DNA of 64,000 nucleotides from assembly GCF_023806465.1 (NCBI RefSeq), contig NZ_JAMSLS010000003.1, forward strand, positions 372,001 to 436,000, read 5' to 3'. Source of the stretch: Thermomicrobium sp. CFH 73360 (lineage in GTDB: Bacteria; Chloroflexota; Chloroflexia; Thermomicrobiales; Thermomicrobiaceae). Positions 11,640 to 28,042 of this stretch are shown one piece after another. Within the stretch, counting starts at the first letter, position 1. Each line of letters opens with the position of its first letter. Position numbers and translations under genes: made by a program. Under the pieces are notes generated by a model. It did no database searches, was not told the DNA's origin, and saw only the letters and a list, made by a program, of their open reading frames with translations.

Positions 11640-11988
11640 GGTCGCTCAGGTGTTGGTTGACTCAGTATTCACCTCGGGATGATTTGGTTGATCCGCTGCT
11701 CGGGGACACGTGTGCAGAATGTGTCAGGGCATACTGAACGATGCGGCGATGCTTCTGCGGTGACAGGGCGTTGGCACACGACAGCGCAAAGTAGTGGTCT
11801 TGCAGGCGTGGGAAGTTTCATATGAGGGTGTGATAGACATGGGTACCGCTGTGTACCTCGTCAGGAATGGGAGGTCGGTGCGAGGGTACTGTAAGTGATG
11901 CTCGTGCTGAAGTAAAGTGGTGCTGTACGGTTGCTCTTGGCAGGTCAGCGGATGCCTGGGGCTTACACGCCGTCACGTGGCCAAGCCT
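11640..11988. other. Gene-poor stretch, no supported gene
   Basis: This interval lies between the lpdA promoter and the end of a decayed Uma2-type gene. I find no open frame with a recognisable family or a good ribosome-binding site, and no repeat. Confidence 0.45.
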
Positions 11989-12664
11989 TCAGATGGGGCG
12001 GAAACGCGTGTGGAACAGCGCATTTCCGCTGTCGCCATTCAGGGAACCGGTTATGGGGCCAGCGTGTTGGTGATGGGGAGAGAGATCAAGGAAAGCACCT
12101 GGGGATACCACATTCCCCGATCCCATTTGGTCTTGGTCCTGACACTCTTCGGCATGGGGAGCTCGGAAGAGCACAACTCGTTGAGCAGTGATATCCACGA
12201 GCCAGGCCTCGGGAATACCAGCGTGACCCCATAACTGCAGGTTGGTGTATCGGTCATCGGCGGAAGAGGTATCGCCCACCGCGATGATTGGGAGGACATT
12301 GGCTGGGCCCGGTTCCGCATTCGTATCAGAGGCTGAGTGTGCTCGAAGCGAAGCGGAATAAGGGCACGTAAGGACATACTCGCTCAAGCGGATCGGTCCT
12401 TCAGTACGGACGATCGCCAGCCGACCGACGTGGCGAACATACAGTTCGGCCAAGCGGTCGACACACGCCTGGTGAGGCCAGCGAATGGACCATATCGATG
12501 GGCTTTTCCTCGAGAAGGTTCACGTGGTCTTCTCGTCGCAGGATGCCGGCGGTAACCATCTGCCCAAGGTCGTCAATCGGAAAACGGTGCAGTGTTGGCA
12601 GCAGCTGTGTCACGGTGAGGAGCTCACTCTCGGCTCGGTACGCTCTTGCCGCAGCTACCACCAA
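11989..12664 (-). pseudogene. Decayed Uma2-family (PD-(D/E)XK, DUF820) gene
   Basis: Two overlapping minus-strand frames together read as one Uma2-family protein. The first (12664 down to about 12490) gives HRFPIDDLGQMVTAGIL. After one extra base near 12487-12493 the second continues with HQACVDRLAEL, GPIRLSEY and HAGIPEAWLVD. Normally PD, E and K residues form the nuclease site. Here the Asp position reads Tyr, the Glu of the 'IEV' strand is Ala (PIIAVGDTS) and the Lys position is Asn. With a frameshift and all catalytic positions changed, the gene is almost certainly dead. Uma2 genes are often multicopy in Chloroflexota. Confidence 0.75.
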
Positions 12665-13184: not shown

Positions 13185-13579
13185 GGGACGGTCTCTCACG
13201 CTGAGTGGTCCCCTTGGAGGGTCGGATCTTCGCCAAGCTGCTGGTGCGCTGCGGCGCGCTCACCGGTGAACACCGGCTGCGGCCAGCGCAGCGCCGTCTG
13301 CGGAGATACCCCAGAACCGAAGAGAACTGAGAGGTACGTAAGACCGAAGATCGGGAAATAACCGAGCAGTTCGACGGGTGGCAAGAGCGGCACGGTGAGG
13401 TGTAATGTGCCGGACAGCAGCGGACAGCTTGAACGGCCGGTGATCTGGGAGACCGGAGTGCCGCAGCTGCGACTGATGACGTGCGTCGCGAGGAGAAGAG
13501 CCTGGCGGGCCAATTACAAGGGCTGATGAGGTGTGAGATATCGCCCTCGCGGGCGTTGCACGGCATGGGCGTTGCTGAT
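13185..13579. other. Gene-poor stretch between SWIM gene and ECF sigma gene
   Basis: About 395 bases between convergent genes. Minus-strand frames include a hydrophobic patch (PPVELLGYFPIFGLTYLSVLFG), but no start with a ribosome-binding site and no family resemblance, so I do not call a gene. It may be a remnant. Confidence 0.4.
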
Positions 13580-14329
13580 TCACGATCTCGGCTGGTGCCG
13601 CAACCGTGTGAACGTTTCACGCAAACGAGAGAGTGCGCGATGAGCTCGTCGCTGGGCTACTGTCGGTGAGATGCCGAGCAGGGAGGCGAGTTCCTCAACG
13701 GAACGATCTCCTTCCCAGCGGAGGAGCAAGATCTCGCGATCGGCTGGTCGCAGTGTGTCGAACGCCCGGAGAAGGAGATCGACTTCCTCGTCGGAAGGGT
13801 CGGGTGTCCTGGGGTCACGGAGGTGGTCACGTAACCAGCGCTCGAGAGCCCGTTGTTCGGCGTGACGGGAGCGCAACCAGTCGATCCAGCAATGCCGAGT
13901 GATGGTCAACAACCAATGGGAGAATGCTTTGGCCTCGCGAAGCTGAGCTCGGGCAGACCATGCTTTGGTCAATGCTTCTTGAACCAGGTCCTCGTGCTCC
14001 GTTTGGGGTACTCCAAGCCGAGCCAGGTACGCCTGGACGGCGCCAGTATAACGCTCCACGAGTGCTCCGAACGCTTGCGAATCGCCGGCGATTGCTTGCT
14101 CAATGAGTGCGCATTCCGACAGGTCGTCTTGCTCGCTGTGCTCCCCTTTGCGGCGACGTTTGGTGGCGTTTCTGGGTTGGCAGGGATTCGCTTGCGTTGG
14201 TGGGGGATGCCGGTGGCAAGACGAAGAGGGCTGGCAGTCGGGTGAGGATTCAGGCACGGCGGAGGGGGTCAGAAGAAGAGCAAGACAGAAAGCCGCAGAA
14301 ACCCAGAGGGTTGCCTTCGCGTGTCGCAT
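13580..14329 (-). CDS. ECF (extracytoplasmic function) sigma factor
   Basis: A sigma70-family factor directing RNA polymerase to a special promoter set. Region 2 (about residues 78-150) includes EDLVQEALTKAW and the following AFSHWLLTITRHCWIDWLR; region 4 (about 185-245) includes the helix-turn-helix SVEELASLLGISPTVAQRRAHRAL. Oddly, the frame has a 75-residue N-terminal extension starting with a hydrophobic stretch (LWVSAAFCLALLLT), and no ATG, GTG or TTG occurs between the Pro-rich linker and region 2; the only internal option is GTG at the AVPES segment. It is the last gene of the TTQ-like cluster and is the likely regulator of three nearby TGTCTG-N17-CGTCA sites. No anti-sigma gene is seen. 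Confidence 0.88.
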   Translation of the reverse strand: MRHAKATLWVSAAFCLALLLTPSAVPESSPDCQPSSSCHRHPPPTQANPCQPRNATKRRRKGEHSEQDDLSECALIEQAIAGDSQAFGALVERYTGAVQAYLARLGVPQTEHEDLVQEALTKAWSARAQLREAKAFSHWLLTITRHCWIDWLRSRHAEQRALERWLRDHLRDPRTPDPSDEEVDLLLRAFDTLRPADREILLLRWEGDRSVEELASLLGISPTVAQRRAHRALSRLRETFTRLRHQPRS

Positions 14330-14363
14330 GGCCTACATGATCCCCGTTTCATGGGCCGTTGCC

Positions 14364-14951
14364 TCAAGTGTAGACAAAGAAAGCAATGCAACCGAGGGCA
14401 GCGAGGGAAGGGAGGAGACGTACGCGGCGCTGACTCGCTACCAGCCAGCTGGCTCCCGGCGATGCTTGCCTGCCCCAGAGCAGCCAGGCTCCGGTGATGG
14501 TGGCGAGGCCACGCGTCAACCCAAAGCTGCCGAAAAGAAGAGCGCTGCCGAGCAGGCTACCGCTCAGGAGCGACAGGGCTGCAAGCCCAAGAAGTTGGAA
14601 AGAAGGCCAGCGGGAGGTCAAGCCAATCCCGAGGTCGAGGCCCCACGCGAAGCTGGCACATGCTGCACCCCTGAGAAACAGACGAGGCGGAACCTGACGG
14701 TAAACGAGGCTCGGTGTTCTCCATCTTCCGATTGTCAGGTCCGCGAGGAGGCCGAGGACGAGCACCACGACGGTCAGCCAGGTATGAGCGGTCCTCTCAA
14801 GCTCGAAGGGAAGCAGCACCTGGCCAAACCAACCCAACAGAAGGCCACCAAAGAAACCGCCCAGTACTGTACCCCCACAGTGGAGGAGCGCCAGCTGGAT
14901 GCGGCGCCACCGCGTTGAGTGTCGGATCGTCGGGCCGAGCACGTTGACCAT
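14364..14951 (-). CDS. Polytopic membrane protein, CcdA/MauF-like (tentative)
   Basis: 195 residues with about six hydrophobic segments and few Cys. A Gly-rich block (FAWGLDLGIGLTSRW) and the pattern LSGSLLGSALLFGSFGLTR recall CcdA/DsbD-type and MauF membrane proteins, which move reducing power or support assembly of methylamine dehydrogenase in the envelope. That resemblance is from pattern memory and is weak. GAGG lies eight bases before the ATG. Its place between the MauD-like gene and the ECF sigma gene, same strand and small gaps, supports membership in the amine-dehydrogenase-like operon. Confidence 0.65.
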   Translation of the reverse strand: MVNVLGPTIRHSTRWRRIQLALLHCGGTVLGGFFGGLLLGWFGQVLLPFELERTAHTWLTVVVLVLGLLADLTIGRWRTPSLVYRQVPPRLFLRGAACASFAWGLDLGIGLTSRWPSFQLLGLAALSLLSGSLLGSALLFGSFGLTRGLATITGAWLLWGRQASPGASWLVASQRRVRLLPSLAALGCIAFFVYT

Positions 14952-15019
14952 GGAGTAGCCTCAAGGCGACCAGAGTGCTGCAAGTCCACAGGTTGCGGCA
15001 AGTGGCAGGAGCGCCGGAA

Positions 15020-15591
15020 TCATCGTGGGGCCGTCCTTCCATGGGTTGGAGAGAGACCGATCAAGACGATTGAGATGATCTCAAGGAGATCCTCAGGGGA
15101 TCGGAGAGGTGCGCGGCTACGGAGCATTCCTTCACGATCAATGAGAAGGGCTGACGGAAACTGCGTGAGCCCAAGTGCGGAAAGGGCGCTATCTCCTGTG
15201 AGGAATGCGTACCCGGCTGGCCACTCGTCTGGCGGTTCACCAGTCGGTAGGGCGAGCACTGGAAACACGCCGTGTTCGCGAAGCCAAACAAGGAGTGTTG
15301 TCAGTTGGTCGCGGAAAGGCTGACATGGCGGACAGCGGCCGCTGAGCGCCATGACCACAGCGGGGGCTACGGGGGATTGACCGTGGATGAGCTGGTGTCC
15401 CTCGCTGGTCGTGAGTGCAAGCGGCGGTACGGGTTCGCCGATGCCCTGACCTCTTGCTCGTGCCGTCGGGCGTGTATCTCGAGCTGCTCGAGTCGAGCGA
15501 CTCGTTGGGTCAGTTGGACAGTCATGCGAACGGCGGCTGTCAGCACGATCCAGGTGACCACGAGTAGAGTCAACAGAAGCCAATCAGGCAC
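15020..15591 (-). pseudogene. MauD-like membrane-anchored thioredoxin, frameshifted
   Basis: MauD supports disulfide formation in the methylamine dehydrogenase light chain. Here a GTG at 15591, overlapping the stop of the heavy-chain/MauE gene, begins a frame with one membrane helix (PDWLLLTLLVVTWIVLTAAV) and a stalk (QRVARLEQLEIHARRHEQ). The thioredoxin part continues in the next frame: GIGEPVPPLALTTSEG, then the CxxC motif SGRCPPCQPFRDQL, then FPSALLIDREG. The join is near 15445-15465, so a one-base loss separates the two halves. It could be true decay, a sequencing error or, less likely, recoding; no classic slippery heptamer is visible. Confidence 0.7.
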
Positions 15592-17374
15592 CGTGATCGA
15601 AAGTTGCTCCCCTCTGTGCAGTGCGAATGACCGTAACCGCTGCTGCGAGGCGGCTGACGTTGAGTACAACGAGCACAATCAAGAGGCCAAGAAGGGTCAG
15701 TGTGAGTGTCGGCGCCCGCGGTTCTGTCCACGCCAGAAGCAAGATGCCGAGGAGAAAGAGATTCCGGAGGGTGGTGGTGCGGCCGCTTGTGTGTGGTGCC
15801 AGTGGGCCGAAGCAGGGGCACGGTTGCCGCGGTGCCCGTCGGACAGCGAAGAGAGAGACACCCAGAAAGAGGAGGAGAAGGCCTGTTGCGCTGGCCAGAC
15901 CAACACGAGGTGAGAACGGCAAGAGTAACAGCACTGCGGTCCCTGTCTCAGCGGCGACCAGTCCCGCCAGGATCACGTTGGTTCGACGGTGTAGCGCTGG
16001 GAGAACAGTGCCGAGCTGTTGGACGCTTGTACGCCAGGTGAGAGTTTTGCCGAGAGCCGCAAGGGCAAACGTCGCTGCGAGGACAGCGGTAGCCAAAGAG
16101 GAAAGGTTCTCCATCCACGATGTTGTCGCGGGCACGGATGCTGGCTGGGCCACTCCTGGGGCGTAAACAGGCCAGCCGTAATAGAAGCGCCACTCGAAGC
16201 TGAGATTCAAGTTGCACGCCACTGGCTGGGAGAGGGTGGCGGTGGAGAGATCAATACTGCGGAGGCATCCATCGTCCATGCTTCCGATATAGACCGAGGA
16301 ACGAGCTGCGTCATAGCCGACGAGTGTCCATGACTCAACGCTGGAGGGAAGCATCGTCTGCGTCCTGATCTGCCAACGCTGGTTATCAATGAAGAGCAGT
16401 GCGTTGGGGCGTGCCAGGACAATCACCTGCTCCGGGGTAGAGACTGCCTGGACAGCAGACAGTTCATCGGTGAGAGCCGGGTCGACCCGGAGCTGAGCGA
16501 GTGTTCGGGCATCCATGGTGATGCGCTTCAGGTCCTCGGTCAGGATGCGGAGGTGATCCCTGTCTTGCGTCACGGAAATGACTCCGGGTAGGGCGCTTGG
16601 GGAAGCTTGCCCGGGGGCGGGGAGCATGGGTGAGAGCACTGGAAGTCGCTGTTCGGCTTTCACGTTTCCTGTGGTGGGATCGATGACATGGACAGAAGCC
16701 CGGTATCCGGAACGCTCCGGCAACATTGCTGAGGCCACCACCACCAGCTGAGTCTCCGTTAGGAAGAGCCAGGCGTAATTTGTTCCCGGAACAGTAAGAG
16801 CCCAGTCAGCCCAACGAGGGGTGGATAGATCCAGGGCCGTGACCACCAAAATCGGCCAATCGCGGCCGGTGAAGAAGGCCACGGCAGCCCGATTTCCGTC
16901 GGAAGATAGAGAGGCGCTAAACAGGCTTGGATCGACGGCTGCCTCGGGTGCCTGCGCTGCGAGGCGTTGTAGTGGTGGAATGCTCGAATCGAGATCGAAT
17001 TCGGCAAGAAGCGACCAAGTAGGAAGCCCGCGCAGCTCGAGACGTGAGTGCAGCCTGCCTTGTTGCTCTTCCACCCGGTAAGCCAGCGCCCGATCGCCGC
17101 GAGGAGACAAGAATATCTGCCGAACTGCAGCCGAAGGATTTGCGATTCGGTTGAGTACGGTGCCGGACCGAGGATCCAAAACAAGAATCTCGTCTGCGTC
17201 TGTGCCGGCGAGCGAGAGAAGAACTGGGTTGGCCGTAGCGCTTCTCACCGCGCTTGAGGCGAATGAGGTGAATACTAGGACAGCAAGCACCAGAGCAATC
17301 AGTACCAGGGCAACGTGAGAGGCCGTCGGGCGGCGGCTTGCTCGAGTCATGTGATATGACCAGCTGGCAGGCAT
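15584..17374 (-). CDS. Methylamine-dehydrogenase heavy-chain-like propeller fused to MauE-like membrane domain
   Basis: 596 residues in two parts. Residues about 20-42 form an N-terminal anchor; about 45-410 form a beta-propeller with repeats such as ILVLDPRSGTVLNR and a Cys pair (DDGCLRSIDL ... QPVACNLNL) shared by all three paralogues here. Such propellers are the heavy subunits of TTQ amine dehydrogenases. Residues about 430-596 are a four-helix MauE-like domain with the signature PCPCFGPLAP; MauE is needed for light-chain maturation and is normally a separate protein. The ATG at 17374 is chosen for GAGAGGAG seven bases upstream; 17398 is possible. It follows the intact light chain by about 27 bases, and the MauD-like gene overlaps its stop. 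Confidence 0.8.
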   Translation of the reverse strand: MPASWSYHMTRASRRPTASHVALVLIALVLAVLVFTSFASSAVRSATANPVLLSLAGTDADEILVLDPRSGTVLNRIANPSAAVRQIFLSPRGDRALAYRVEEQQGRLHSRLELRGLPTWSLLAEFDLDSSIPPLQRLAAQAPEAAVDPSLFSASLSSDGNRAAVAFFTGRDWPILVVTALDLSTPRWADWALTVPGTNYAWLFLTETQLVVVASAMLPERSGYRASVHVIDPTTGNVKAEQRLPVLSPMLPAPGQASPSALPGVISVTQDRDHLRILTEDLKRITMDARTLAQLRVDPALTDELSAVQAVSTPEQVIVLARPNALLFIDNQRWQIRTQTMLPSSVESWTLVGYDAARSSVYIGSMDDGCLRSIDLSTATLSQPVACNLNLSFEWRFYYGWPVYAPGVAQPASVPATTSWMENLSSLATAVLAATFALAALGKTLTWRTSVQQLGTVLPALHRRTNVILAGLVAAETGTAVLLLLPFSPRVGLASATGLLLLFLGVSLFAVRRAPRQPCPCFGPLAPHTSGRTTTLRNLFLLGILLLAWTEPRAPTLTLTLLGLLIVLVVLNVSRLAAAVTVIRTAQRGATFDHGA

Positions 17375-17401
17375 TGCGCGGCTCCTCTCTTCCTTCATCC
17401 C

Positions 17402-17830
17402 TTAACAGACTCCGACGAGGACTGCGCGAGTGCAGACCACAGAGCGACTGTCGCCGCACCAGTTCGGCTGCGGCTGGCCACGGGAACACAGGCAACTCGA
17501 TGGACAGGGCGACGGCTGGCTTGACTGGCAGCAATCGATGTAGCGCACGATAAACGCGCGATTCCGTACCGGATCGTAGCAGCACGCATACCAAGACTTT
17601 GTGCCACTGCTCGTTCCTGGGGGGCAGGAAGAATCGCTGCCACCGCGGCAGGAACAAAGACAACCTTGCTGGTTACAACGGAACCATTCGGTGCAGCTTT
17701 GCGCGGAGACGGGCATTGGTGCTTTGAAGAACGTTGTCATCCCGATGAGACTCGCCGTTATCCTGCGGATCCAAGAACGCCGGGTGACCCGGGGCGCACG
17801 TTGACCGGGAGAGACGTCAGACCTGTCCAT
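17402..17830 (-). CDS. Methylamine-dehydrogenase light-chain-like (TTQ) protein, intact copy
   Basis: 142 residues with 16 Cys. A twin-arginine leader (TRRSWIRRITASL, cleavage probably after VSAQ) is followed by the family pattern GCLCSCRGG, SCPPGTS, KSWYACC, VRYIDCC and PNWC. In methylamine dehydrogenase, Trp57 and Trp108 are joined into tryptophan tryptophylquinone; the equivalents are Trp80 and Trp124. Asp99 matches the catalytic Asp76. The position of Asp32, which assists TTQ formation, appears to be Gln55. AGGAGG lies six bases before the ATG at 17830. A shared ECF-type promoter lies 36 bases upstream. Expected to pair with the downstream heavy chain outside the membrane; the amine substrate is unknown. 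Confidence 0.82.
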   Translation of the reverse strand: MDRSDVSPGQRAPRVTRRSWIRRITASLIGMTTFFKAPMPVSAQSCTEWFRCNQQGCLCSCRGGSDSSCPPGTSSGTKSWYACCYDPVRNRAFIVRYIDCCQSSQPSPCPSSCLCSRGQPQPNWCGDSRSVVCTRAVLVGVC

Positions 17831-17865
17831 CTGATGCCTCCTGATTTCCAATGTTCCCTTATTTC

Positions 17866-17893
17866 TGACGCTTAAAGGTTGACAAATCAGACA
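17866..17893 (-). promoter_or_regulatory. ECF-type promoter, light chain 1 operon
   Basis: Minus-strand TGTCTG (-35; 17888-17893), 17-base spacer, CGTCA (-10; 17866-17870). The flanks also match the site before heavy chain 3: CCTGTCTG and CGTCAGAAA are identical in both. The ATG follows about 36 bases after the -10. Confidence 0.75.
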
Positions 17894-18155
17894 GGCAAGG
17901 AGGATAGGCACGAAGTAAGGCTGTCCCGAGGAGATCGACTGCCAGAGTACCTGGAGAGCACACGTGGCGACAGGGTCGGCCCGACGCGTTCTCCTACGAC
18001 GTCAGAAGAGACTCAATGCACAGTCCGCTGATGGCGGAGGCGAACCGAACGCTCCCCGATAGGTGAGTGCGCCCAGTCGAACGAGGCTGTGCTTGACCCC
18101 GGCGACCCGCGGCGCGGTGATATGTATAAGGCAGTGTCGCGACCGGGCACGCGGT

Positions 18156-19457
18156 TCACGGCTCGCCCGTCATGAACGCTGGCCAGCCGAAGAGCGGCGC
18201 CGGGTAATCGAGCGCGAGGTTGCAGTGCAACGACCCGCTGAAGGTTCCGCTGCTGAGGTCGAGGTTCCGCAAGCAACCTTCCTTCGTGTTAATGAGGAAG
18301 GCCGTGCGTTGCTCAGTGTCTACGCCAACGAGCAGCCAGTTCCCTTCCGGAATGGTTGGTAACGGAAAAGTGGTCATCACGTGCCAGTTGCTGACGTCGA
18401 GAACCCAGAGCGACTTGCCCACAAGAACGAGGAGGTCTCCAATCAGGTACGGGCGACCGCTGACAACGAGGCGATCGGCGAGCGGTGGGCGGTGTTCTAC
18501 CAGTCTCAGGTTCCTGGGATCGATGATAAAGAGTTCGAGGTCATCGGTGACAATCAGTATGCGATTGTTCCAGAGTTGAGGCGTGAGGGCAGTGGAGAAG
18601 GTATTATGAGGACTCGAGGGGTTTTCGCCGAGCGGCTTGGCCTGCACAGACCAGCTTTCCAGCGGCAGCTCAGCCAGGACCGTCCCGTTTCTGGGATCAA
18701 GGGAAACAAGATTGGCAACTGTGTGGTGCGTGGTAGTGCGTAGGCTGTGGGCTAGCACAAGGATACGGTCGATTAGCGCGAGAAGCGAAACCGTTTGGCT
18801 TGAGGGAAGTGCATAGGCCCATGGTGCCCATTCTCCTGTTTGGAGGTCGAGCGCAGTAACCCACACCAGTTGGCTGTGGGTGCCGTCAGGGTAGGGGGTG
18901 GCCATGGACCAAAAGGCGATGGCAGCCCAGCGTCCGGTCGGCTCGCTGACCACCTCAAGGACAGTGGGGGTCTGACCCGCTGTTGCGGGATGCTGGGCAG
19001 CGAGAACGCGCGCGGGTGGAATGTCAGGGGTGATAGGGACGCTGCGCGCAACGGCCCAATCGGTCACGCGCCGGAGTTCAAGACTCGGGTACGTGGTCGC
19101 GTTCGATTCCAGCGGTGCGCGGTAGAGAAGTGCCTGTTGCCCTCCTGGGAGGAGATAGCCGCGGATGACCTCATTGGGCTCGGAGAAGGTGAAACGGTTG
19201 CGGACGGTGCCGGCCCGGGCATCGAGGAGTACGAGTCCAGTGTGTTGCACGGCAAGAGTGGAACTTGGTGCTTCTCCAACTGGCGCGAGGAGGAGCGGCG
19301 TACCCGCTTCGAGTGATCCGCTCGAAGCTCGATGGGTGGTCGAGAGCGGACGTAGGAAGAGCAGTGCTGCGAGAGCCAGCAGCAACACGATCACCACTGC
19401 GAGAACTCCTCGTGCACGTAGCCACAGAGACGGAGTGAGTGTGACGACTGCTTTCAT
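18156..19457 (-). CDS. Methylamine-dehydrogenase heavy-chain-like propeller, copy 2
   Basis: 433 residues: cytoplasmic tail, one N-terminal helix (VLAVVIVLLLALAALLFL) and a beta-propeller outside the membrane. It is paralogous to the other two heavy chains, sharing LVLLDARAGTVRNR, the WVTALDLQTGEWAPW blade and the C-terminal Cys pair GCLRNLDL ... LHCNLALDY. Without a MauE extension it ends soon after the last blade. GGGAGG stands seven bases before the ATG. The gene lies 41 bases after the broken light chain 2, in the order light-heavy, whereas copy 3 has heavy-light. If light chain 2 is dead, this subunit must pair with light chain 1 or be orphaned. Confidence 0.78.
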   Translation of the reverse strand: MKAVVTLTPSLWLRARGVLAVVIVLLLALAALLFLRPLSTTHRASSGSLEAGTPLLLAPVGEAPSSTLAVQHTGLVLLDARAGTVRNRFTFSEPNEVIRGYLLPGGQQALLYRAPLESNATTYPSLELRRVTDWAVARSVPITPDIPPARVLAAQHPATAGQTPTVLEVVSEPTGRWAAIAFWSMATPYPDGTHSQLVWVTALDLQTGEWAPWAYALPSSQTVSLLALIDRILVLAHSLRTTTHHTVANLVSLDPRNGTVLAELPLESWSVQAKPLGENPSSPHNTFSTALTPQLWNNRILIVTDDLELFIIDPRNLRLVEHRPPLADRLVVSGRPYLIGDLLVLVGKSLWVLDVSNWHVMTTFPLPTIPEGNWLLVGVDTEQRTAFLINTKEGCLRNLDLSSGTFSGSLHCNLALDYPAPLFGWPAFMTGEP

Positions 19458-19498
19458 CGAGTGCCTCCCGTCATGTCTTTCCTTGCTCTCACACGGCG

Positions 19499-19947
19499 CT
19501 AACACTGTGACCAGACCTGGGCGCGGGTGCAGTACGCTGCGTTGCTTTCTGAGTTCGGGCACCAGTTTTGGTTGGCCGGTGGCTGGCCACACCGCTGGTT
19601 GCAGTAACAGCCGGATGGACAGGTTGGTCGTGCGTTCCTCGCACCACAGCAGTCGAGGTAACGGATGAGCTACCAACGGCCACTCGCGTAACAGCAGACC
19701 CACTATGCGCCGCCTGGCGATGTTCCTGGTGGGCAGGCGGTATCGCTCCCGCCAAGGCAAGAGCACACAAGCAGCCACACATACCGCACCGGTGCCACTG
19801 GCCGCAGTTCGCCTGGGCAGAGAGGGGCAGATGATCGCTGAAGGTCGCCCCCATGGCCAGCAACACCACAGCCAGGCGCTGCACCCAGCTGCGCCGTGTG
19901 GAACGCTTTTCGGGGCTGGTGCCGATCGGAGCATGCCGGTGCGACAT
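19499..19947 (-). pseudogene. TTQ light-chain-like gene, copy 2, frameshifted with two TAG codons
   Basis: The first frame gives a twin-arginine leader (STRRSWVQRLAVVLLAM, then LSAQ) and the mature start ANCGQWHRCGMCGCLC. A two-base surplus in TTGTGTGCTC then shifts the frame. The continuation reads CSCLGGSDTACPPGTS, RYLDCC, CYCNQRCGQ and QNWCPNS, ending in VWSQC. This second part holds two in-frame TAG codons. Aligned with copy 3 (GAWYVCC and FWLIRY), both TAGs fall where copy 3 has Trp; the first coincides with the TTQ-forming Trp. Each would arise from TGG by one G-to-A change. Most likely a recent pseudogene. It retains an ECF-type promoter. Confidence 0.75.
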
Positions 19948-19977
19948 CGGAAAAGTTCTCCCTAGCCCTGTCTGGTA

Positions 19978-20005
19978 TGACGTCCGTGAGCTTGCGCAGC
20001 AGACA
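19978..20005 (-). promoter_or_regulatory. ECF-type promoter, light chain 2/heavy chain 2 unit
   Basis: Minus-strand TGTCTG (20000-20005), 17-base spacer, CGTCA (19978-19982), about 30 bases before the light chain 2 ATG. It has the same core and spacing as the two other sites in the cluster. Confidence 0.7.
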
Positions 20006-20122
20006 ATGCCGGTTGCTCTCAGTGCTTCGCGACCGAACCTAGTGGGGAAAAAGAGGTTCTTTCCAGTGGAGTTCGACGGAACTGCACGGGTGAGGTTGAC
20101 GGGTGTCGTTCGTCGTGCCTGA

Positions 20123-20480
20123 TCAACAGGTTGCCCAAATCTGGGTCTGGGTACAGACGGCACAGTAGCCGGTTGGACACCAGTGTGGTTGGGGGCAACC
20201 GTTTCGGCAGACACAAGAGAAGGGGTAGCCGCTCAGGGGATCCGGGCAGGACGTCTCGCCTGGCTGCCTGGGACGACAGCAATCACGATACCGGATGAGC
20301 CAGAAGCGGCCTTGCGTGTCGCGGCAGCAGACGTACCACGCGCCTCTGGGCGAGCTTCCCGGCGGACAAGCTGTGTCACCACCGCCCCGGCAAGAGCAGC
20401 GACAGCCGCAGGTTGACAAGTGCAGTGGCGAGGGCGCTCAAGGTACCGAGCAGGGTAGTGCGCCGGCTCAATCTTGTCAT
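20123..20480 (-). pseudogene. TTQ light-chain-like gene, copy 3, N-terminal deletion and frameshift
   Basis: An ATG at 20480, overlapping the heavy chain 3 stop as ATGA and preceded by GGAGGG, begins a short twin-arginine leader (MTRLSRRTTLLGTLSALATA). That frame stops soon after. The light-chain body is in another frame: TCGCRCSCRGG, ACPPGSS, AWYVCC, RYRDCC and PHWCPTG, including both TTQ Trp and the catalytic Asp. Compared with copy 1, the mature N-terminal block with its first two Cys (CTEWFRC) is missing. A TTG at 20419 could restart translation but would give no export signal. Probably non-functional, but the body is well conserved. Confidence 0.7.
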
Positions 20481-21697
20481 CCGATCCCTCCGGCCACAGC
20501 GAACCGGCGCTCGTAGAGATTCGTGTCGAGACCACAGAGGAGCTGCTCGATCTCTCCCTGGAACGGAACACGGACCAGGCAGCCGGGAAGGCCATTGGAG
20601 AGGAGCAACAGCGCAACGTGCTCGTCAGGCAGGAAGGTGACGAGCTCGGCTGTCCAGTCTGTTGGGAGGGAACGGCGGGCGACAATTTGCCCGCTGACGA
20701 GGTCGGCTTGGATCAACTCAGAGGTCTGCGTGAGCGCGACGAGACGCTCGGTCGTCAACCACACGTTTGCTCCCTGAGCCAGGATGGTCGGACTGAGCGG
20801 AAGAACTTGACGAGTCACCTCGAGTGTCTCTGGATCGACGACGAACACTGCCAGCTGCTCAGTGGCGACCAGCAGCTGGTCACCGAAGGAACGGACTGCG
20901 GCGATGCGCGGGTGACGTCCCCCTTCAGCGGCAGAGAAATGCGCTGGCGAAACGGCAGGAAGTGCCAACTGGCCCTGCACCTGGCCGGTCGTTGGATCGA
21001 GCGCGAGGAGCGTCCCAGGAGAGAGCGGTTGGGGCGTGGCGGCAATGGGGCTACCGGCCAGGAACAGCTTTTCGGGAGTCGGAACGATGTAGACCCAGTC
21101 GGTGCCAGGAAGGGGGTGAATCCAAGGCAACCAAGTGCCTTGCTGCAGGTCGATGGCAGTGACCCAGAGGATCCAAGGGGGAGTGTCCAGAAAGGCTGGA
21201 TCAGGGTGCTCGCCCATGGAGACGAAACCGACAGCGGCATAGCGTCCAGTGGGATCAACTTCCAAGGTGACCGGTCGTGGCTTAGCCCGTGGCACATCAG
21301 GGTGGTAGGTCGCAAGTTGGTGCAGGTTCGGGAGTTGGTTATCGAGAGGCAAACGATAGGCGACTACCCAGTCGGCGAGCCGGTAGACAATGAGTGCATC
21401 GTCGGTCGCAGTGACCACCTGTTGGCCATTGGCACTAGCAGCTAAGAGGGCGGCGCTCCCTGGATGTTGGGATACGACGGTCCCGGTGTACGGATCGATG
21501 GCAATGAATGTGGAGTTCGTCTGGGCCAGGACTATGGGCTTCGTTGTTTTTGGCTGCTCGGTCCAGCTGCCAAGCGTCCATTGCTCACCACGGTTCGTGA
21601 GCCAGAGAAGGGTTGTGAGGAACGCCAGGACACTGAGCCCGAGCGTGACCAGGCGAAGGTGGCGCGGTTGACGCATGGTATCCACGACAAGGCTCAT
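20477..21697 (-). CDS. Methylamine-dehydrogenase heavy-chain-like propeller, copy 3
   Basis: 406 residues: one N-terminal helix (LVTLGLSVLAFLTTLLWL) then a beta-propeller. Shared paralogue blocks include FIAIDPYTGTVVSQ, ILWVTAIDLQQGTWLPW and the C-terminal Cys pair GCLVRVPF ... QLLCGLD. AAAGGAG lies eight bases before the ATG. It heads its own unit behind the strongest copy of the ECF-type promoter and its stop overlaps the light chain 3 start. Known heavy chains of the family are periplasmic; here a membrane anchor would keep the enzyme at the cell surface, reasonable for a bacterium without a classical outer membrane. Confidence 0.78.
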   Translation of the reverse strand: MSLVVDTMRQPRHLRLVTLGLSVLAFLTTLLWLTNRGEQWTLGSWTEQPKTTKPIVLAQTNSTFIAIDPYTGTVVSQHPGSAALLAASANGQQVVTATDDALIVYRLADWVVAYRLPLDNQLPNLHQLATYHPDVPRAKPRPVTLEVDPTGRYAAVGFVSMGEHPDPAFLDTPPWILWVTAIDLQQGTWLPWIHPLPGTDWVYIVPTPEKLFLAGSPIAATPQPLSPGTLLALDPTTGQVQGQLALPAVSPAHFSAAEGGRHPRIAAVRSFGDQLLVATEQLAVFVVDPETLEVTRQVLPLSPTILAQGANVWLTTERLVALTQTSELIQADLVSGQIVARRSLPTDWTAELVTFLPDEHVALLLLSNGLPGCLVRVPFQGEIEQLLCGLDTNLYERRFAVAGGIG

Positions 21698-21745
21698 CAG
21701 GACTGCTCCTTTGAGACTGCCTGTCGCCTAACCTTTCACTCTTTC

Positions 21746-21773
21746 TGACGTCTTTCGTGGCCTTGAGCAGACA
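21746..21773 (-). promoter_or_regulatory. ECF-type promoter, heavy chain 3 unit
   Basis: Minus-strand TGTCTG (21768-21773), 17-base spacer, CGTCA (21746-21750), about 48 bases before the ATG. The eight-base -35 block and nine-base -10 block are identical to those at 17.9 kb although the spacers differ, which argues for a conserved site rather than a copied region. Confidence 0.75.
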
Positions 21774-21779
21774 GGTCAC

Positions 21780-22323: not shown

Positions 22324-23436
22324 ATGGTGGCTCGCGGTCTGGAAGGGGTCGTGGCAGGAACCACACGGCTCAGCTCGATCATCGATGGCACATTGGCCTA
22401 TGGGGGGATTGAGATCGACGAGCTGGCTGCCGAGGCGTCCTACGAAGAGGTAGTCTACCTGCTGTACTACGGGGAACTTCCGACGCGTGCGCAGTTAGCG
22501 GGGCTCCAGCAGCAACTCGCGGCGCAACGTGCGTTGCCGGACGGTGTTGTTCAACTGTTGGCTCGGGCGCCACGGGCGGTGCCGATGGATCTTTTGAGGA
22601 CGGCAGTGTCGGCACTTGCCTGGTACGAGGAGGATCCGGATACCGTCGCGCGGGAGGCTGCTGTTGCTAAGGGGCTGCGTTTGGTGGCGCAGGTGCCAAC
22701 GATTGTGGCCACGATTGCTCGTCTGCGTCGCGGCCTCGAGCCGGTGGTGCCGCCAGTTGACGAACTGAGCACCGCTCGGGCGTTCTTACGCACGTTGCAT
22801 GACCGTGAGCCGAGCGAGCTCGAAGTGGAGGCAATGAACAAGATTCTGGTGCTCCACGCAGACCACGAGTTCAACGCTTCAACCTTCACCGCACGCGTGG
22901 TCGCAGCAACACTGGCGGATATGCATGCGGCGGTCACGGCGGCGATCGCGGCGTTGAAGGGACCGTTGCATGGTGGTGCCAATGCGGCGGTCATGCAGAT
23001 GTTGGAAGAGATAGGGACACTTGACCAGGTGGAGCCCTACATTAAGGAAAAGCTGGCGCGGAAAGAACGGATCATGGGCTTTGGGCACCGCGTGTATAAG
23101 GGCGAGGATCCGCGGGCGAAGTGGCTACGCGATCTCTCGCGACGGCTTGGTGCGGCACGGGGTGACGTGCGCTGGTATGAGCTTTCGATTGCCATTGCCG
23201 ACGTGATGGCACGGGAGAAGGGGTTGTTCCCCAACGTTGATTTCTATGCGGCGTCGGTTTACCACTATCTCGGGATCGAGAAGGAGCTCATGACGCCGGT
23301 CTTCGCCGCAAGCCGCATTAGCGGGTGGACAGCGCACATTTTGGAACAGCAGGCAGACAACCGTCTGATTCGACCGCGTGCGGAGTATGTGGGGCCGACC
23401 AATCGGCATTTTGTGCCGATCGATCAGCGTGGATAG
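22324..23436 (+). CDS. gltA: Citrate synthase / 2-methylcitrate synthase family
   Basis: Condenses acetyl-CoA with oxaloacetate, entry to the TCA cycle; a propionyl-CoA-using methylcitrate role cannot be excluded. 370 residues, the short form common outside proteobacteria. The catalytic residues are in LHADHEFNAS (His), MGFGHRVYKGEDPR (His) and FPNVDFYAA (Asp). GGAGGAGG stands upstream of the ATG. It is a single-gene unit followed by an inverted repeat. Confidence 0.93.
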   Translation: MVARGLEGVVAGTTRLSSIIDGTLAYGGIEIDELAAEASYEEVVYLLYYGELPTRAQLAGLQQQLAAQRALPDGVVQLLARAPRAVPMDLLRTAVSALAWYEEDPDTVAREAAVAKGLRLVAQVPTIVATIARLRRGLEPVVPPVDELSTARAFLRTLHDREPSELEVEAMNKILVLHADHEFNASTFTARVVAATLADMHAAVTAAIAALKGPLHGGANAAVMQMLEEIGTLDQVEPYIKEKLARKERIMGFGHRVYKGEDPRAKWLRDLSRRLGAARGDVRWYELSIAIADVMAREKGLFPNVDFYAASVYHYLGIEKELMTPVFAASRISGWTAHILEQQADNRLIRPRAEYVGPTNRHFVPIDQRG

Positions 23437-23454
23437 GAGACGTCTTGCGATCCA

Positions 23455-23488
23455 TGCCGGTGAGGAGGGCTAACCCGCCTCACCGGCA
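23455..23488 (+). terminator. Hairpin after citrate synthase
   Basis: TGCCGGTGAGG (23455-23465) and CCTCACCGGCA (23478-23488) form a perfect 11-base stem with a 12-base loop, 19 bases after the stop. No U tract follows, so it may act as an RNA-stabilising or factor-dependent terminator. Confidence 0.5.
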
Positions 23489-23555
23489 GAGAAGCTGTCT
23501 GCAGCGCGAGTCCTGCTTGTCCTGCGCGCCCGCGCGTTTCCCCGGCATCCTTCTA

Positions 23556-23572
23556 CGCCTCGTCCCGAGGCG
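23556..23572. promoter_or_regulatory. Short palindrome beside a TATAGT box
   Basis: CGCCTCG and CGAGGCG flank three bases, immediately followed by TATAGT (23574-23579) and then the GTG of the ATPase gene at 23587. The -10-like hexamer so close to the start suggests a leaderless transcript with an operator over the promoter. Confidence 0.4.
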
Positions 23573-23586
23573 GTATAGTTGGGGGC

Positions 23587-24495
23587 GTGGAACGACGGTG
23601 GCGCTTTCGCGAAGATGATGTTGCGCCTTTCCCCTCAACCGACTGGTGGGGAAGGTTTGGTGTTGGCTCTGGGAGTGACTTGTCCCTGGTCGATCTGGTC
23701 CGACTCGGGAGTCTTGATGCCGCGACCGCTGCCTTCCTCTGGATGACGCTCGAGCAGCGGGCGACGGTTCTCGTTGCCGCACGCGAACACGGAGCGGGGA
23801 AGACAACACTCCTGAGTGCGCTGGTGGAGTTACTTCCGCCCGAGACGAAGCGGTATTACCTGCGTGGCTGGTACGAGCGCTTTGACTTTGTCACAACCCA
23901 CAATCCTGGCACGACGTACCTCCTCGTCAATGAGATTAGTGACCACTTACCGATCTATCTCTGGGGGAGAGGGGTACGACGGGTTTTTGCCCTCGTGGCC
24001 GAGGGTTGGCGTCTGGGAGCGACCGTGCATGCGCAAGGCGCGGAAGAGGTGTTCTCGTTGTTGCAAGGCTTTCCTCTGGAGGTGCCTCCTGAACACCTAC
24101 GCGCCATCGATGTGGTCGTGACGCTTGGGATGGGTATCGGGAATGAAGGCTTACTTCGTCGCGTTGTTTGCGTCGAGGCTGTCCGAGTGCGTGGAGCCGA
24201 ACTTGCGACGCATGTACTGGCCAGACGTGAAACCCTGCGGTCATCCTTGGCAGTCTATCCGGCTGCGTTCCTGGCGACGCTGACAGAACGTTTTGGTCTG
24301 TCCCTTGAAGAGGCGAGCCGTCAGCTGGCCTGGCGGCAGCGGCAACTGGCCCGATGGGTGACCGAGGGGATTCGGGGATTGGACGCCTTCCGGGCGGTGC
24401 TCGCAGAACTTCGTGCCCGTAAGTTAACAGAAGAAGTTGACGGGGCCTACGAGGAGAGTAGGATTGAGGGGACACCAGAGGCGAACCAGAGATGA
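23587..24495 (+). CDS. P-loop ATPase of the secretion (VirB11/CpaF/GspE-like) type
   Basis: 302 residues. Walker A is AREHGAGKTTLL (about residues 60-70), an acidic Walker B-like strand is TYLLVNEIS, and GATVHAQGAEEVFSLLQ matches the Thr-x-His-Ala segment of CpaF/GspE ATPases. The large N-terminal domain of those proteins is absent, and no pilus or secretion genes are nearby, so a role in machinery assembly is uncertain. The start is GTG. It lies 28 bases upstream of a MoxR ATPase gene and precedes a VWA protein; the three probably form a unit. Confidence 0.72.
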   Translation: MERRWRFREDDVAPFPSTDWWGRFGVGSGSDLSLVDLVRLGSLDAATAAFLWMTLEQRATVLVAAREHGAGKTTLLSALVELLPPETKRYYLRGWYERFDFVTTHNPGTTYLLVNEISDHLPIYLWGRGVRRVFALVAEGWRLGATVHAQGAEEVFSLLQGFPLEVPPEHLRAIDVVVTLGMGIGNEGLLRRVVCVEAVRVRGAELATHVLARRETLRSSLAVYPAAFLATLTERFGLSLEEASRQLAWRQRQLARWVTEGIRGLDAFRAVLAELRARKLTEEVDGAYEESRIEGTPEANQR

Positions 24496-24523
24496 AACAA
24501 GCGCACGGAGGTCGAGGGTTAGG

Positions 24524-25924
24524 ATGGACAAGCCACGAACGCTGGGCGAGCTACGCGAGAGCGGTTACCGTGTCCTTCCCGTACGGGAGGAGATGCGGAA
24601 GAACCTGATTGCCAAGATCCAGACGGGGGAACCGATCTTCGAGGGGATTATCGGCTACGAGGAGACGGTCATCCCGCAGGTAGAGAACGCGATTCTGGCT
24701 GGGCAGGACATTATCTTTCTGGGCGAGCGTGGCCAGGCCAAGACGCGGATGGCTCGGCTCCTGGTGAATCTCCTTGATGAAGAAATTCCGATCGTTGCCG
24801 GAAGCGAAGTGAACGATAACCCGTTTGCGCCGATTTCCAAATATGCGCGTGATCTGATTGCCAAAATGGGTGATGAAACGCCCATTGTGTGGATCGGGCG
24901 TGAGGACCGTTATGCCGAGAAGTTGGCCACGCCAGATACCACGATTGCTGATCTCATAGGTGAGATTGACCCAATCAAAGTGGCAGAGGGGCGATATCTT
25001 TCGGATGAATTGACTATTCACTATGGACTTATCCCACGGACGAATCGCGGCATTTTCGTCATCAATGAGCTCCCGGATCTTGCGGAGCGGATCCAGGTCG
25101 GATTGCTCAACATCATGGAGGAGCGTGACGTCCAGATCCGCGGATATCGGGTACGCCTGCCGCTGGACGTTTTCGTGGTGGCGAGCGCTAATCCGGAGGA
25201 CTACACGAACCGCGGTCGGATCATCACACCGCTCAAGGATCGCTTTGGAGCGCAAATCCGAACGCATTATCCACGGACGATTGAGCACGAGATTGAGATC
25301 ATGGAGCAAGAGCGAACGCCGGTGGAGGTTCCGGGAATCACGGTGACGGTGCCACAGTACATGCGCGAGATTGTTGCCGAGATCACGCACCTCGCGCGGC
25401 GCAGCCCGGACATCAGTCAGCGGTCAGGCGTCAGTGCCCGGATGTCAGTGGCGAACTATGAAACACTGGTGAGTAATGCAGTGAAGCGAGCGATCCGGCT
25501 TGGTGAGAAGCATGCCGTACCCCGGATTAGCGACTTGCCTGCCCTCATTGCCTCGACGCTTGGGAAACTTGAGTTCGAGACGTTGGGCGAGGTGCAGGAA
25601 GAGCGGATCATCGAAAAATTGATCAATGGGGCCGTAGCGGCGACCTTCAATCGCTACTTCTCGGTTCGTGACTTCGATGATCTTCTCCTCGCCTTTGAGA
25701 ATGGACTGACGGTCGAGGCTTCTGACCTGCAGCCGGCGATGCGGTATGTGCACCAGGTCTCGCACATTGAGAGCCTCCGGCGGGCGGCGCAACGGCTGGG
25801 GGCGACTGGTGATCCGGCTCTGGTCGCGGCAGCGGTCGAGTTTGTCCTTGAGGGCCTCCATCTGAACCGGCGCCTGAACAAAGATCGTGCAGCCGGTCGC
25901 GGGCCAGCGCGCTACCGCAGTTGA
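24524..25924 (+). CDS. MoxR/ChlI-type AAA+ ATPase
   Basis: 466 residues. Walker A is FLGERGQAKTRMA (about residues 65-76), Walker B FVINELPDL, and sensor-type segments are FVVASANPEDYTNRGRI and LKDRFGAQI. MoxR ATPases act as chaperones with a VWA partner, as in metal insertion or activation of enzyme complexes; the partner gene follows 24 bases downstream. The ATG at 24524 follows GGAGGTCGAGGGTTAGG; the frame is open upstream into the ATPase gene. The C-terminal quarter is helical and without a known motif. The client is unknown. Confidence 0.88.
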   Translation: MDKPRTLGELRESGYRVLPVREEMRKNLIAKIQTGEPIFEGIIGYEETVIPQVENAILAGQDIIFLGERGQAKTRMARLLVNLLDEEIPIVAGSEVNDNPFAPISKYARDLIAKMGDETPIVWIGREDRYAEKLATPDTTIADLIGEIDPIKVAEGRYLSDELTIHYGLIPRTNRGIFVINELPDLAERIQVGLLNIMEERDVQIRGYRVRLPLDVFVVASANPEDYTNRGRIITPLKDRFGAQIRTHYPRTIEHEIEIMEQERTPVEVPGITVTVPQYMREIVAEITHLARRSPDISQRSGVSARMSVANYETLVSNAVKRAIRLGEKHAVPRISDLPALIASTLGKLEFETLGEVQEERIIEKLINGAVAATFNRYFSVRDFDDLLLAFENGLTVEASDLQPAMRYVHQVSHIESLRRAAQRLGATGDPALVAAAVEFVLEGLHLNRRLNKDRAAGRGPARYRS

Positions 25925-25948
25925 GGGATCCTCGCCAGGAGGTGTGTC

Positions 25949-28042
25949 ATGGAGACCACGCCATACCGATTTCGCTACTCTCGCTGGGACGGAACGCAGA
26001 ACATTGACGCATTCACCGCTGACGAACTCCTGGAGGCGATGGCGGACGACCTCCTGGCGGAAGGGGACGTCAATCGGGCTCTGCAGCGCCTCTTCCGGTG
26101 GGGCATCGATCGGCCGGATGCCCGCATGCCGGGGTTCCGGGAACTCCTCGAGCGGCTCCGAGAGCAGCGACGCCAGTTGCTGCAGCGCTATGACCCGGGG
26201 TCGGTGCTTGAGGATCTGACTCGCCGACTGGAGGATGTCATCCAGACCGAACGGGCGGGAATTGAGCGGCGCGTGCAAGAGGGGCGCGAACGGCTGGCTC
26301 GCGCCCGGGAGCAGCAGACGCACGGTGCACACGAAGGAGAGGAGGAGAGCGCGGGTGAGGTGGGGGCGGAGGAGATGAGTCCGCCTGATCCAGCGCTGCA
26401 GCGGCTGCTCGAGCGAATGGCACAGCAGAAGCTCTCCTTCTTGGATCAGCTGCCGCCAGATCCGGCTGGGCGGATCCGGGCGCTCACTGAGTACGAGTTC
26501 ATGGACCCAGAAGCACGGCGCAAATTCCAGGAACTCCTTGCTGCGCTGCAGCGACAGGTCCTGGAACAGACGTTCCAGGGGCTCCAACAGGCGATTCAGA
26601 ACCTGACGCCGGAAGCGATTGGCGAGCTCCGGCAGATGCTGCGCGACCTCAATGAGCTTTTGCAAGAGCATGCGCGTGGTGGGCAGCCAGATCTCGAACG
26701 GTTCAAGCATCGCTGGGGTCACTATTTTGGCCGTGACTTCAACAGTGTGGAGGAGCTCCTGGATCACCTGGCGCGACAGATGGCGGCGATGCAGAGCCTC
26801 TTGGACTCACTTCCGGCGGAGATGCGCCAGCAGTTGGAAGAGGCTCTCGATGCGGCGCTCCGCGATCCCGAGCTTCAGCGTGAGCTCCGGCAGCTGGGTC
26901 GGCTGTTGGGGCAGCTGATGCCAGACAACCCGTATCGGCAGGCTCAGTCGTTTAGCGGGAGTGAGGAACTCACGCTGGGACAGGCCCTGCGCCTCATGGA
27001 GCAGCTGCGGGCCATGCAAGAGCTCGAGGAGCAGCTTGAGGGGGTGCGCGACTGGCGCGATCTGGGGCGAGTCGATCTGGAGCGGCTACGTGAGCTGTAC
27101 GGCGACGAGCTCGCCGCCCAGCTCGATGCACTGCGGCAGATCACGCGACTGCTCGAGGAGGCTGGGTACATCCAGCGGACACGGCGCGGGTACGAACTGA
27201 CGCCGCGAGCAATCCGGAAGATTGGGCAGAAGGCGCTGCGGGAGATCTTCCAACACCTGAAGCGTGACCGGTTTGGACAACATCAGATCGAGCGGAGTGG
27301 ACGTGGCGGGGAGCCGATCGAAGAGACGAAGTCTTACGAATTTGGTGACCCGTTCTTGCTGCACCTTCCGCGAACAGTTATGAATGCCGTGCAGCGAGAA
27401 GGACCGGGGACGCCGGTGCGGTTGCAGCCGGCTGACTTTGAGGTCTTCCGTACGGAGTCGACCAGTCGTGCGGCAACCGTGCTGATGGTGGACATGAGCC
27501 GGTCGATGCTCTACAACGGCTGCTTCCTAGCGGCAAAAAAGGTGGCGTTGGCGCTGGACAGTCTGATCCGGACGCAATTTCCGCGCGACACACTGTACAT
27601 CATCGGCTTCTCCTACCTGGCTTCGGTACTCACGCCGGAGGAGTTGCCGCATATCACCTGGGACGAATACAACTATGGGACAAACATGCAGCATGGATTC
27701 ATGCTGGCGCGGCAATTGCTCTCGCGACATCGCGGGGGGACGCGTCAGATCATCTTGATCACGGATGGGGAACCGACTGCGTATTTCGATGGTGAGCAAG
27801 TGCGCTTCTCCTACCCGCCGACGTACCAGACCTTCCAGGAGACTTTGAAGGAGGTCGCTCGCTGTACACGTGAGGAGATTGTGATCAATACCTTTATGCT
27901 GGAGCGGAGCCCCTATTTGGCAAGCTTTGTGAATGAGATGACACGGATCAACAAAGGACGCGCCTTCTTTGCGACGCCTGATCATCTTGGTGAGTACATT
28001 GTCATGGACTATGTGGTGAACAAGCGGTTTCGTCTACGGTAA
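25949..28042 (+). CDS. VWA-domain protein, partner of MoxR ATPase
   Basis: 697 residues. The first two thirds (about 1-480) are highly charged, Gln/Glu/Arg/Leu-rich and probably long coiled coils. The C-terminal von Willebrand A domain has a complete metal-ion-dependent adhesion site: DMSRSM at about residue 516, a Thr in NYGTNMQHG, and ITDGEP. AGGAGG precedes the ATG. Together with the MoxR ATPase it resembles the CbbQ/CbbO, ChlI/ChlD and RavA/ViaA pairs, in which the VWA subunit contacts the client. A third small protein follows at 28060. Confidence 0.87.
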   Translation: METTPYRFRYSRWDGTQNIDAFTADELLEAMADDLLAEGDVNRALQRLFRWGIDRPDARMPGFRELLERLREQRRQLLQRYDPGSVLEDLTRRLEDVIQTERAGIERRVQEGRERLARAREQQTHGAHEGEEESAGEVGAEEMSPPDPALQRLLERMAQQKLSFLDQLPPDPAGRIRALTEYEFMDPEARRKFQELLAALQRQVLEQTFQGLQQAIQNLTPEAIGELRQMLRDLNELLQEHARGGQPDLERFKHRWGHYFGRDFNSVEELLDHLARQMAAMQSLLDSLPAEMRQQLEEALDAALRDPELQRELRQLGRLLGQLMPDNPYRQAQSFSGSEELTLGQALRLMEQLRAMQELEEQLEGVRDWRDLGRVDLERLRELYGDELAAQLDALRQITRLLEEAGYIQRTRRGYELTPRAIRKIGQKALREIFQHLKRDRFGQHQIERSGRGGEPIEETKSYEFGDPFLLHLPRTVMNAVQREGPGTPVRLQPADFEVFRTESTSRAATVLMVDMSRSMLYNGCFLAAKKVALALDSLIRTQFPRDTLYIIGFSYLASVLTPEELPHITWDEYNYGTNMQHGFMLARQLLSRHRGGTRQIILITDGEPTAYFDGEQVRFSYPPTYQTFQETLKEVARCTREEIVINTFMLERSPYLASFVNEMTRINKGRAFFATPDHLGEYIVMDYVVNKRFRLR

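Follow-up and report, generated by a model that had tools for sequence, protein, structure and literature searches.

A variable and partly broken array of probable TTQ-type quinoprotein dehydrogenase genes in Thermomicrobium

Most known enzymes carrying tryptophan tryptophylquinone (TTQ) come from proteobacteria, where they occur as single pairs, and methylamine dehydrogenase (MADH) has a dedicated diheme maturase. The closest described systems are the mau cluster of P. denitrificans (mauR, mauFBEDACJG ...; locus L043) and the aromatic amine dehydrogenase (AADH) of Alcaligenes faecalis, together with an AADH-like cluster in Novosphingobium (L044). Here, we analyzed a related gene cluster in Thermomicrobium sp. 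CFH 73360 (3.06 Mb genome; nearest relatives are Thermomicrobium metagenome-assembled genomes (MAGs), Bacterium HR28, HR27, and T. roseum), located in a window of 64,000 nucleotides (contig NZ_JAMSLS010000003.1, positions 372,001 to 436,000). On balance, we consider it probable that this cluster is a variable array of TTQ-type quinoprotein dehydrogenases served by one shared maturation set, which is decaying in this genome. A full-text literature search returned no description of this arrangement, and the T. roseum genome paper makes no mention of methylamine or amine.

In common with the P. denitrificans cluster, the Thermomicrobium cluster has the light-chain fold, both TTQ tryptophans and a key aspartate (Trp57, Trp108, and Asp76 in the published MADH numbering), homologues of MauE and MauF, a putative MauD-like protein, and a propeller partner. 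Unlike it, the cluster has no mauG, mauJ, amicyanin, or mauR, its MauE is fused to a heavy chain, the heavy chains are membrane-anchored and unrelated to MauB in sequence, Asp32 is lost, there are several pairs rather than one, and an extracytoplasmic function (ECF) sigma factor is the putative regulator. The cysteines after the first motif are also more numerous, with 15–20 in family members compared to 12 in MauA. The AADH-like Novosphingobium locus resembles the Thermomicrobium cluster in its set of heavy chain, mauE, mauD, and light chain, and likewise has no mauG nearby; however, both AADH and this locus retain the Asp32 equivalent, comprise a single pair with a separate mauE, and lack a sigma factor.

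As stated in the original prediction, all genes of the cluster lie on one strand (minus), and they are transcribed from 21697 to 13580 in the order H3, LC3, LC2, H2, LC1, H1-MauE, MauD-like, MauF-like, and ECF sigma factor (H, heavy chain; LC, light chain). The three propeller open reading frames (ORFs) and three light-chain genes that it described are present, although LC1 alone among the light chains is intact. LC1 matched the light-chain family PF02975, the check proposed for it, with 50.1 bits (curated cut-off 25; E 4.4e-13), and when a profile of the light-chain family was run against the PDB, every match was a MADH or AADH light chain (best 1.2e-18). An AlphaFold2 (AF2) model of mature LC1 (predicted local distance difference test score, pLDDT, 83; nine sequences in the alignment) aligned over ~96 residues to MADH/AADH light chains with VIA Z scores of 10.4–12.1, the best being the AADH light chain (Z 12.1), while the best unrelated chain reached Z 2.7. 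Judged by this model, LC1 has the predicted MADH/AADH light-chain fold. The residues read from the sequence at the outset are kept, with W80, W124, and D99 of LC1 equivalent to W57, W108, and D76 of MADH and the Cys framework retained, and the same three equivalents are present in nearly all divergent copies, including one from Dormibacterota.

The heavy chains H1, H2, and H3 are propellers with an N-terminal membrane anchor, and the top Foldseek match of the H1 propeller model (AF2) was the AADH heavy chain. Among 61 relatives, this heavy-chain family is essentially limited to the Thermomicrobium genomes that hold the light chain. Across 15 pairs, light-chain and heavy-chain distances correlated strongly (mirror-tree r = 0.87), a value reached in none of 10000 permutations and in 13 of 10000 within-genome shuffles, which argues that each light chain is the cognate partner of the heavy chain next to it, a predicted pairing that is new here.

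A second new feature is an apparent ECF-type promoter conserved ahead of nearly every unit of the array. The pattern TGTCTG-N17-CGTC (or its GTCTG core) occurs in 15/16 array upstream regions across the genus, with shuffled sequences giving three or fewer, and the window holds exactly three matches (0.21 expected), one each ahead of H3, LC2, and LC1, at 31–49 nt from the start codon. With a matrix built from 20 cluster sites, matches outside the cluster in four genomes mostly scored far lower. At two loci outside the genus (L021 and L028/L029, described below), the promoter was not clearly found, a relaxed pattern giving scattered matches. Given this co-occurrence, it is the cluster sigma factor that would read TGTCTG-N17-CGTC.

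The sigma factor itself, present as claimed, comprises Sigma70 regions 2 and 4 (PF04542, 7.6e-14; PF08281, 1.3e-9; TIGR02937, 1.1e-23) and ends 11 aa beyond region 4. Its gene closes the LC1 operon, which makes positive feedback likely. In all six Thermomicrobium sigma proteins, an N-terminal hydrophobic segment (KD19 1.7–2.2), in frame from the ATG (e.g., T. roseum, L042:15438-16181), is followed by a Pro/His-rich linker and a basic patch, which suggests a membrane-tethered sigma factor. This N-terminus changes more quickly than the sigma domain (ratio ranging from 0.4 to about 1, based on few sites), and a function for it is therefore only proposed. Membrane segments fused to sigma factors have been described in ECF36, ECF48, ECF52, ECF53, and IutY, either C-terminal or as N-terminal multi-helix segments (PMC8999054). 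A comparable promoter is that of ECF41 sigma factors (TGTCACA-n16-CGTC), which have a large C-terminal regulatory extension (PMC3426412). Its form and spacing equal those of the Thermomicrobium promoter, whose −35 element reads TGTCTGc; however, the Thermomicrobium sigma factor lacks the C-terminal extension of ECF41 and has the N-terminal hydrophobic segment. The promoter of Tt-RpoE1 (tGTTAC-N16-CGTC), from T. tengcongensis, where TolB is the anti-sigma factor, is also similar (PMC3397946). Both systems also resemble the regulon proposed here in having few, local targets.

The features of the cluster, all on the minus strand of the window, are as follows.
21747–21773, minus strand: ECF-type promoter P(H3), TGTCTG-N17-CGTC, 49 nt upstream of the H3 start
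20477–21697, minus strand: heavy chain H3, N-terminal transmembrane (TM) anchor and propeller, 406 aa; ORF with a ratio of nonsynonymous to synonymous substitution (dN/dS) of ~0.24 compared to HR28
20123–20480, minus strand: light chain LC3, disrupted (62 bp deleted at 20407); HR28 counterpart open (L015:6229-6609)
19979–20005, minus strand: ECF-type promoter P(LC2), 31 nt upstream of the LC2 start
19499–19947, minus strand: light chain LC2, broken (2-bp insertion, two TAG); HR28 counterpart open (L015:6807-7253)
18156–19457, minus strand: heavy chain H2, TM anchor and propeller, 433 aa; ORF
17867–17893, minus strand: ECF-type promoter P(LC1), 36 nt upstream of the LC1 start, heading the operon that ends in the sigma gene
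17402–17830, minus strand: light chain LC1, intact, 142 aa, 16 Cys, twin-arginine-like leader; PF02975, AF2 fold, W80/W124/D99
15584–17398, minus strand: H1-MauE fusion with TM anchor, heavy-chain propeller at ~16124-17398, and MauE domain at the C-terminus (~15728-16111)
15020–15591, minus strand: thioredoxin-fold protein resembling MauD, frameshifted (1 bp deleted at 15452); assigned mainly by position and CPPC motif
14364–14951, minus strand: membrane protein of 195 aa, MauF-like by hhalign against the P. denitrificans protein
13580–14329, minus strand: ECF sigma factor with N-terminal hydrophobic segment (~14255-14311) and basic linker; Sigma70 regions 2 and 4
13196–13513, minus strand: remnant of a DoxX-like membrane gene with counterparts in T. 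roseum and G001

The LC3 start overlaps the H3 stop (ATGA). Gene order and flanking genes are the same at the locus of the sister species HR28 (L015), and the T. roseum megaplasmid NC_011961 (L042) follows the same plan with additional pairs. The flanks of the cluster (22324-28042) encode a citrate synthase, a P-loop protein, and a MoxR/von Willebrand pair, in an order conserved in the genus, and the same neighborhood lies on the megaplasmid in T. roseum. In T. roseum and G001, the DoxX-like gene (L016:17395-18453) comes after the sigma gene, whereas it is split in HR28 and reduced to a remnant in the window.

The maturation genes named in the original prediction were largely recovered, in altered form. 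MauE is present (PF07291, 2.4e-17), not as a separate gene but as the C-terminal part of the H1 ORF, beside mauD, and the same fusion is seen in the counterparts from HR28, HR27, G001, G004, and T. roseum. Of the MauD and CcdA/MauF-like factors, the 195-aa membrane protein is by profile comparison a MauF homologue (hhalign probability 96, E 3.8e-9), whereas mauD is frameshifted; its product is a CPPC thioredoxin-like protein with a weak Thioredoxin_2 match (0.21; 5.4e-5 in a relative from G318). The NCBIfam models assigned no name to the heavy chains or the MauF-like protein.

Called against the open HR28 genes, the lesions leave LC1 as the sole intact light chain of three in this genome. In LC2, 2 bp are inserted at 19771-19770, and two codons read TAG, one in place of the first TTQ Trp (19705-19703) and one at 19672-19670, while LC3 lost its 62 bp and mauD its single base at the positions given above; the frames of all three genes are open in HR28. 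Given these losses, the triplicated working cluster originally proposed does not hold for this genome, while the idea of surface-attached, TTQ-type paralogous pairs under one sigma factor is well supported and has been strengthened by cognate pairing, a shared promoter, and the predicted fold. The dN/dS of the broken genes compared to HR28 is still low (LC2 0.19, LC3 0.10), so their loss appears recent. Suppression or recoding of the TAG in LC2 was rejected because the 2-bp insertion disrupts the same gene. Assembly error as the only source of the lesions is unlikely, given that 62 bp are deleted, two Trp codons have separately become TAG, and neighboring genes carry two small indels; for the 1-bp deletion in mauD, assembly or sequencing error is possible. 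Decay also extends beyond this genome, with H3 broken in G001 and G004 and one T. roseum light chain frameshifted. Compared to HR28, LC1 and H1-MauE show a nonsynonymous divergence (pN) of 0.22–0.23 (15584-17830 vs. L015:8932-11189) against 0.05–0.08 in their neighbors, an excess which suggests replacement of this pair by recombination.

With PF02975 and the family profile, we searched several hundred Chloroflexota genomes and found members only in Thermomicrobium, one MAG of the same class (L021), and one Dormibacterota MAG (L028/L022); beyond this set, the relatives are the MADH/AADH of proteobacteria, on plasmids. T. roseum holds six heavy chains and five light chains (four open and one broken). 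The PLSDB gene table for NC_011961.1 has one of these light chains, with three open (L042:2160-2603, 6064-6483, and 11920-12381) and one broken gene absent. At L021:2311-7138, we noted two ECF sigma genes, each overlapping a membrane propeller gene with an N-terminal cytosolic domain, beside a TTQ-type light chain. These propeller proteins are candidate anti-sigma factors.

The array that we favor would work as follows. Each unit would consist of a light chain and its own cognate propeller, with the N-terminal helix of the heavy chain anchoring it on the outside of the membrane. The light chain would be exported via its twin-arginine-like leader, and its disulfides formed by the common MauE (fused to H1), MauD, and MauF homologue, after which the two tryptophans would probably be crosslinked to a TTQ-like quinone. 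This quinone may oxidize a small substrate, most likely an amine, with the electrons passing to a cupredoxin or cytochrome c whose gene lies elsewhere; both kinds of protein are encoded in the genome. The dedicated ECF sigma factor, probably self-amplifying, would drive all units from the TGTCTG-N17-CGTC promoters. A stronger form of this proposal, in which a tryptophan-derived quinone is made without MauG or Asp32 and diversified by gain and loss of cognate pairs that share one maturation set and one ECF sigma factor, itself tethered to the membrane and reading a promoter of its own, is one that we regard as possible but doubtful.

Several results weigh against a TTQ-type array. The MauG family (CCP_MauG, PF03150) had no match in any of nine genomes from the genus and its family, in a search that found matches in the controls E. 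coli and M. acetivorans. A cluster lacking MauG has a parallel in the Novosphingobium cluster, which also has none nearby; what is unusual is that MauG is missing from whole genomes in combination with the loss of Asp32. The aspartates with a reported critical role in TTQ biogenesis are residues 32 and 76. The Asp32 position is Gln55 in LC1 and Q/W/C/G/S/H/R across all 16 complete members checked, while the equivalent is retained in P. denitrificans MauA and the Novosphingobium relative; a critical role of two aspartates is stated in the title of Jones 2005, as cited in PMC7876137. One HR27 light chain has Leu in place of the second TTQ Trp. LC1 scored 55.8 bits against TIGR02659, the MADH small-subunit equivalog (cut-off 196.85), and therefore falls outside the MADH small subunits as NCBI defines them. 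On the heavy-chain side, the expected match to PF06433 was found for none of H1–H3, leaving only the propeller fold in agreement, hhalign gave no sequence relation to MauB (probability 0.7), and many other propeller structures scored nearly as high against the H1 model. Finally, no amicyanin or cytochrome gene lies within the cluster. With MauG and the Asp32 equivalent both missing, we infer amine dehydrogenation with TTQ from the remaining features rather than demonstrate it.

The absence of MauG and Asp32, the up to eight extra cysteines, and the HR27 copy lacking its second Trp would also fit a TTQ fold without TTQ, i.e., Cys-rich (15–20) exported proteins whose Trp pair is structural or bears another oxidation product, forming a binding or redox complex and no dehydrogenase. 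We consider this unlikely, given that W57, W108, and D76 are kept in nearly all divergent copies, even in Dormibacterota, that MauE, MauD-like, and MauF are retained as a set, and that no mauG lies near the AADH-like Novosphingobium cluster either. An ordinary methylamine dehydrogenase operon from proteobacteria would account for the related mauF, mauE, and mauD set and for the megaplasmid location in T. roseum, but is highly improbable: the missing mauG, mauJ, mauC, and mauR already contradict it, as do the LC1 score far below the TIGR02659 cut-off, heavy chains unrelated to MauB, a fused MauE, and the lost Asp32.

Two further accounts concern the role of the cluster. It could mainly be a sensor, whose propeller–light chain complex reads a redox or chemical signal outside the cell and controls a sigma factor tethered by its N-terminal segment until proteolysis, as the hydrophobic segment, linker, and basic patch of the six sigma proteins, the overlapping sigma and propeller genes at L021, and the TolB anti-sigma precedent in T. 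tengcongensis (PMC3397946) would allow. However, the Thermomicrobium heavy chains have short N-terminal tails and no anti-sigma domain match, many pairs for one sigma factor better suit an output array, and the N-terminus of the sigma factor changes more quickly than the sigma domain, making this account quite improbable. A more serious possibility, though one we hold to be somewhat improbable, is that the whole cluster is a functionless, dying relic in this genome, which would be compatible with a TTQ-type array in the genus at large. The broken LC2, LC3, mauD, and DoxX-like genes favor it, together with the broken H3 and light-chain genes elsewhere in the genus. Yet LC1, H1-MauE, H2, H3, the MauF-like gene, and the sigma gene are open at dN/dS 0.14–0.32 (0.19–0.26, i.e., purifying selection, for H2, H3, MauF-like, and sigma), the LC1 operon is retained in every genome that holds it in full, and the single-base mauD lesion may be a sequencing error or be offset by another thioredoxin.

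Across the genus, the array has as many as six heavy-chain and five light-chain genes, its active site is altered, and MauG is missing, which makes other routes to tryptophylquinones and the role of Asp32 testable. The private promoter defines a small candidate ECF regulon, and most T. roseum light chains still lack annotation. The array is also a clear example of the rapid birth and decay of enzyme pairs.

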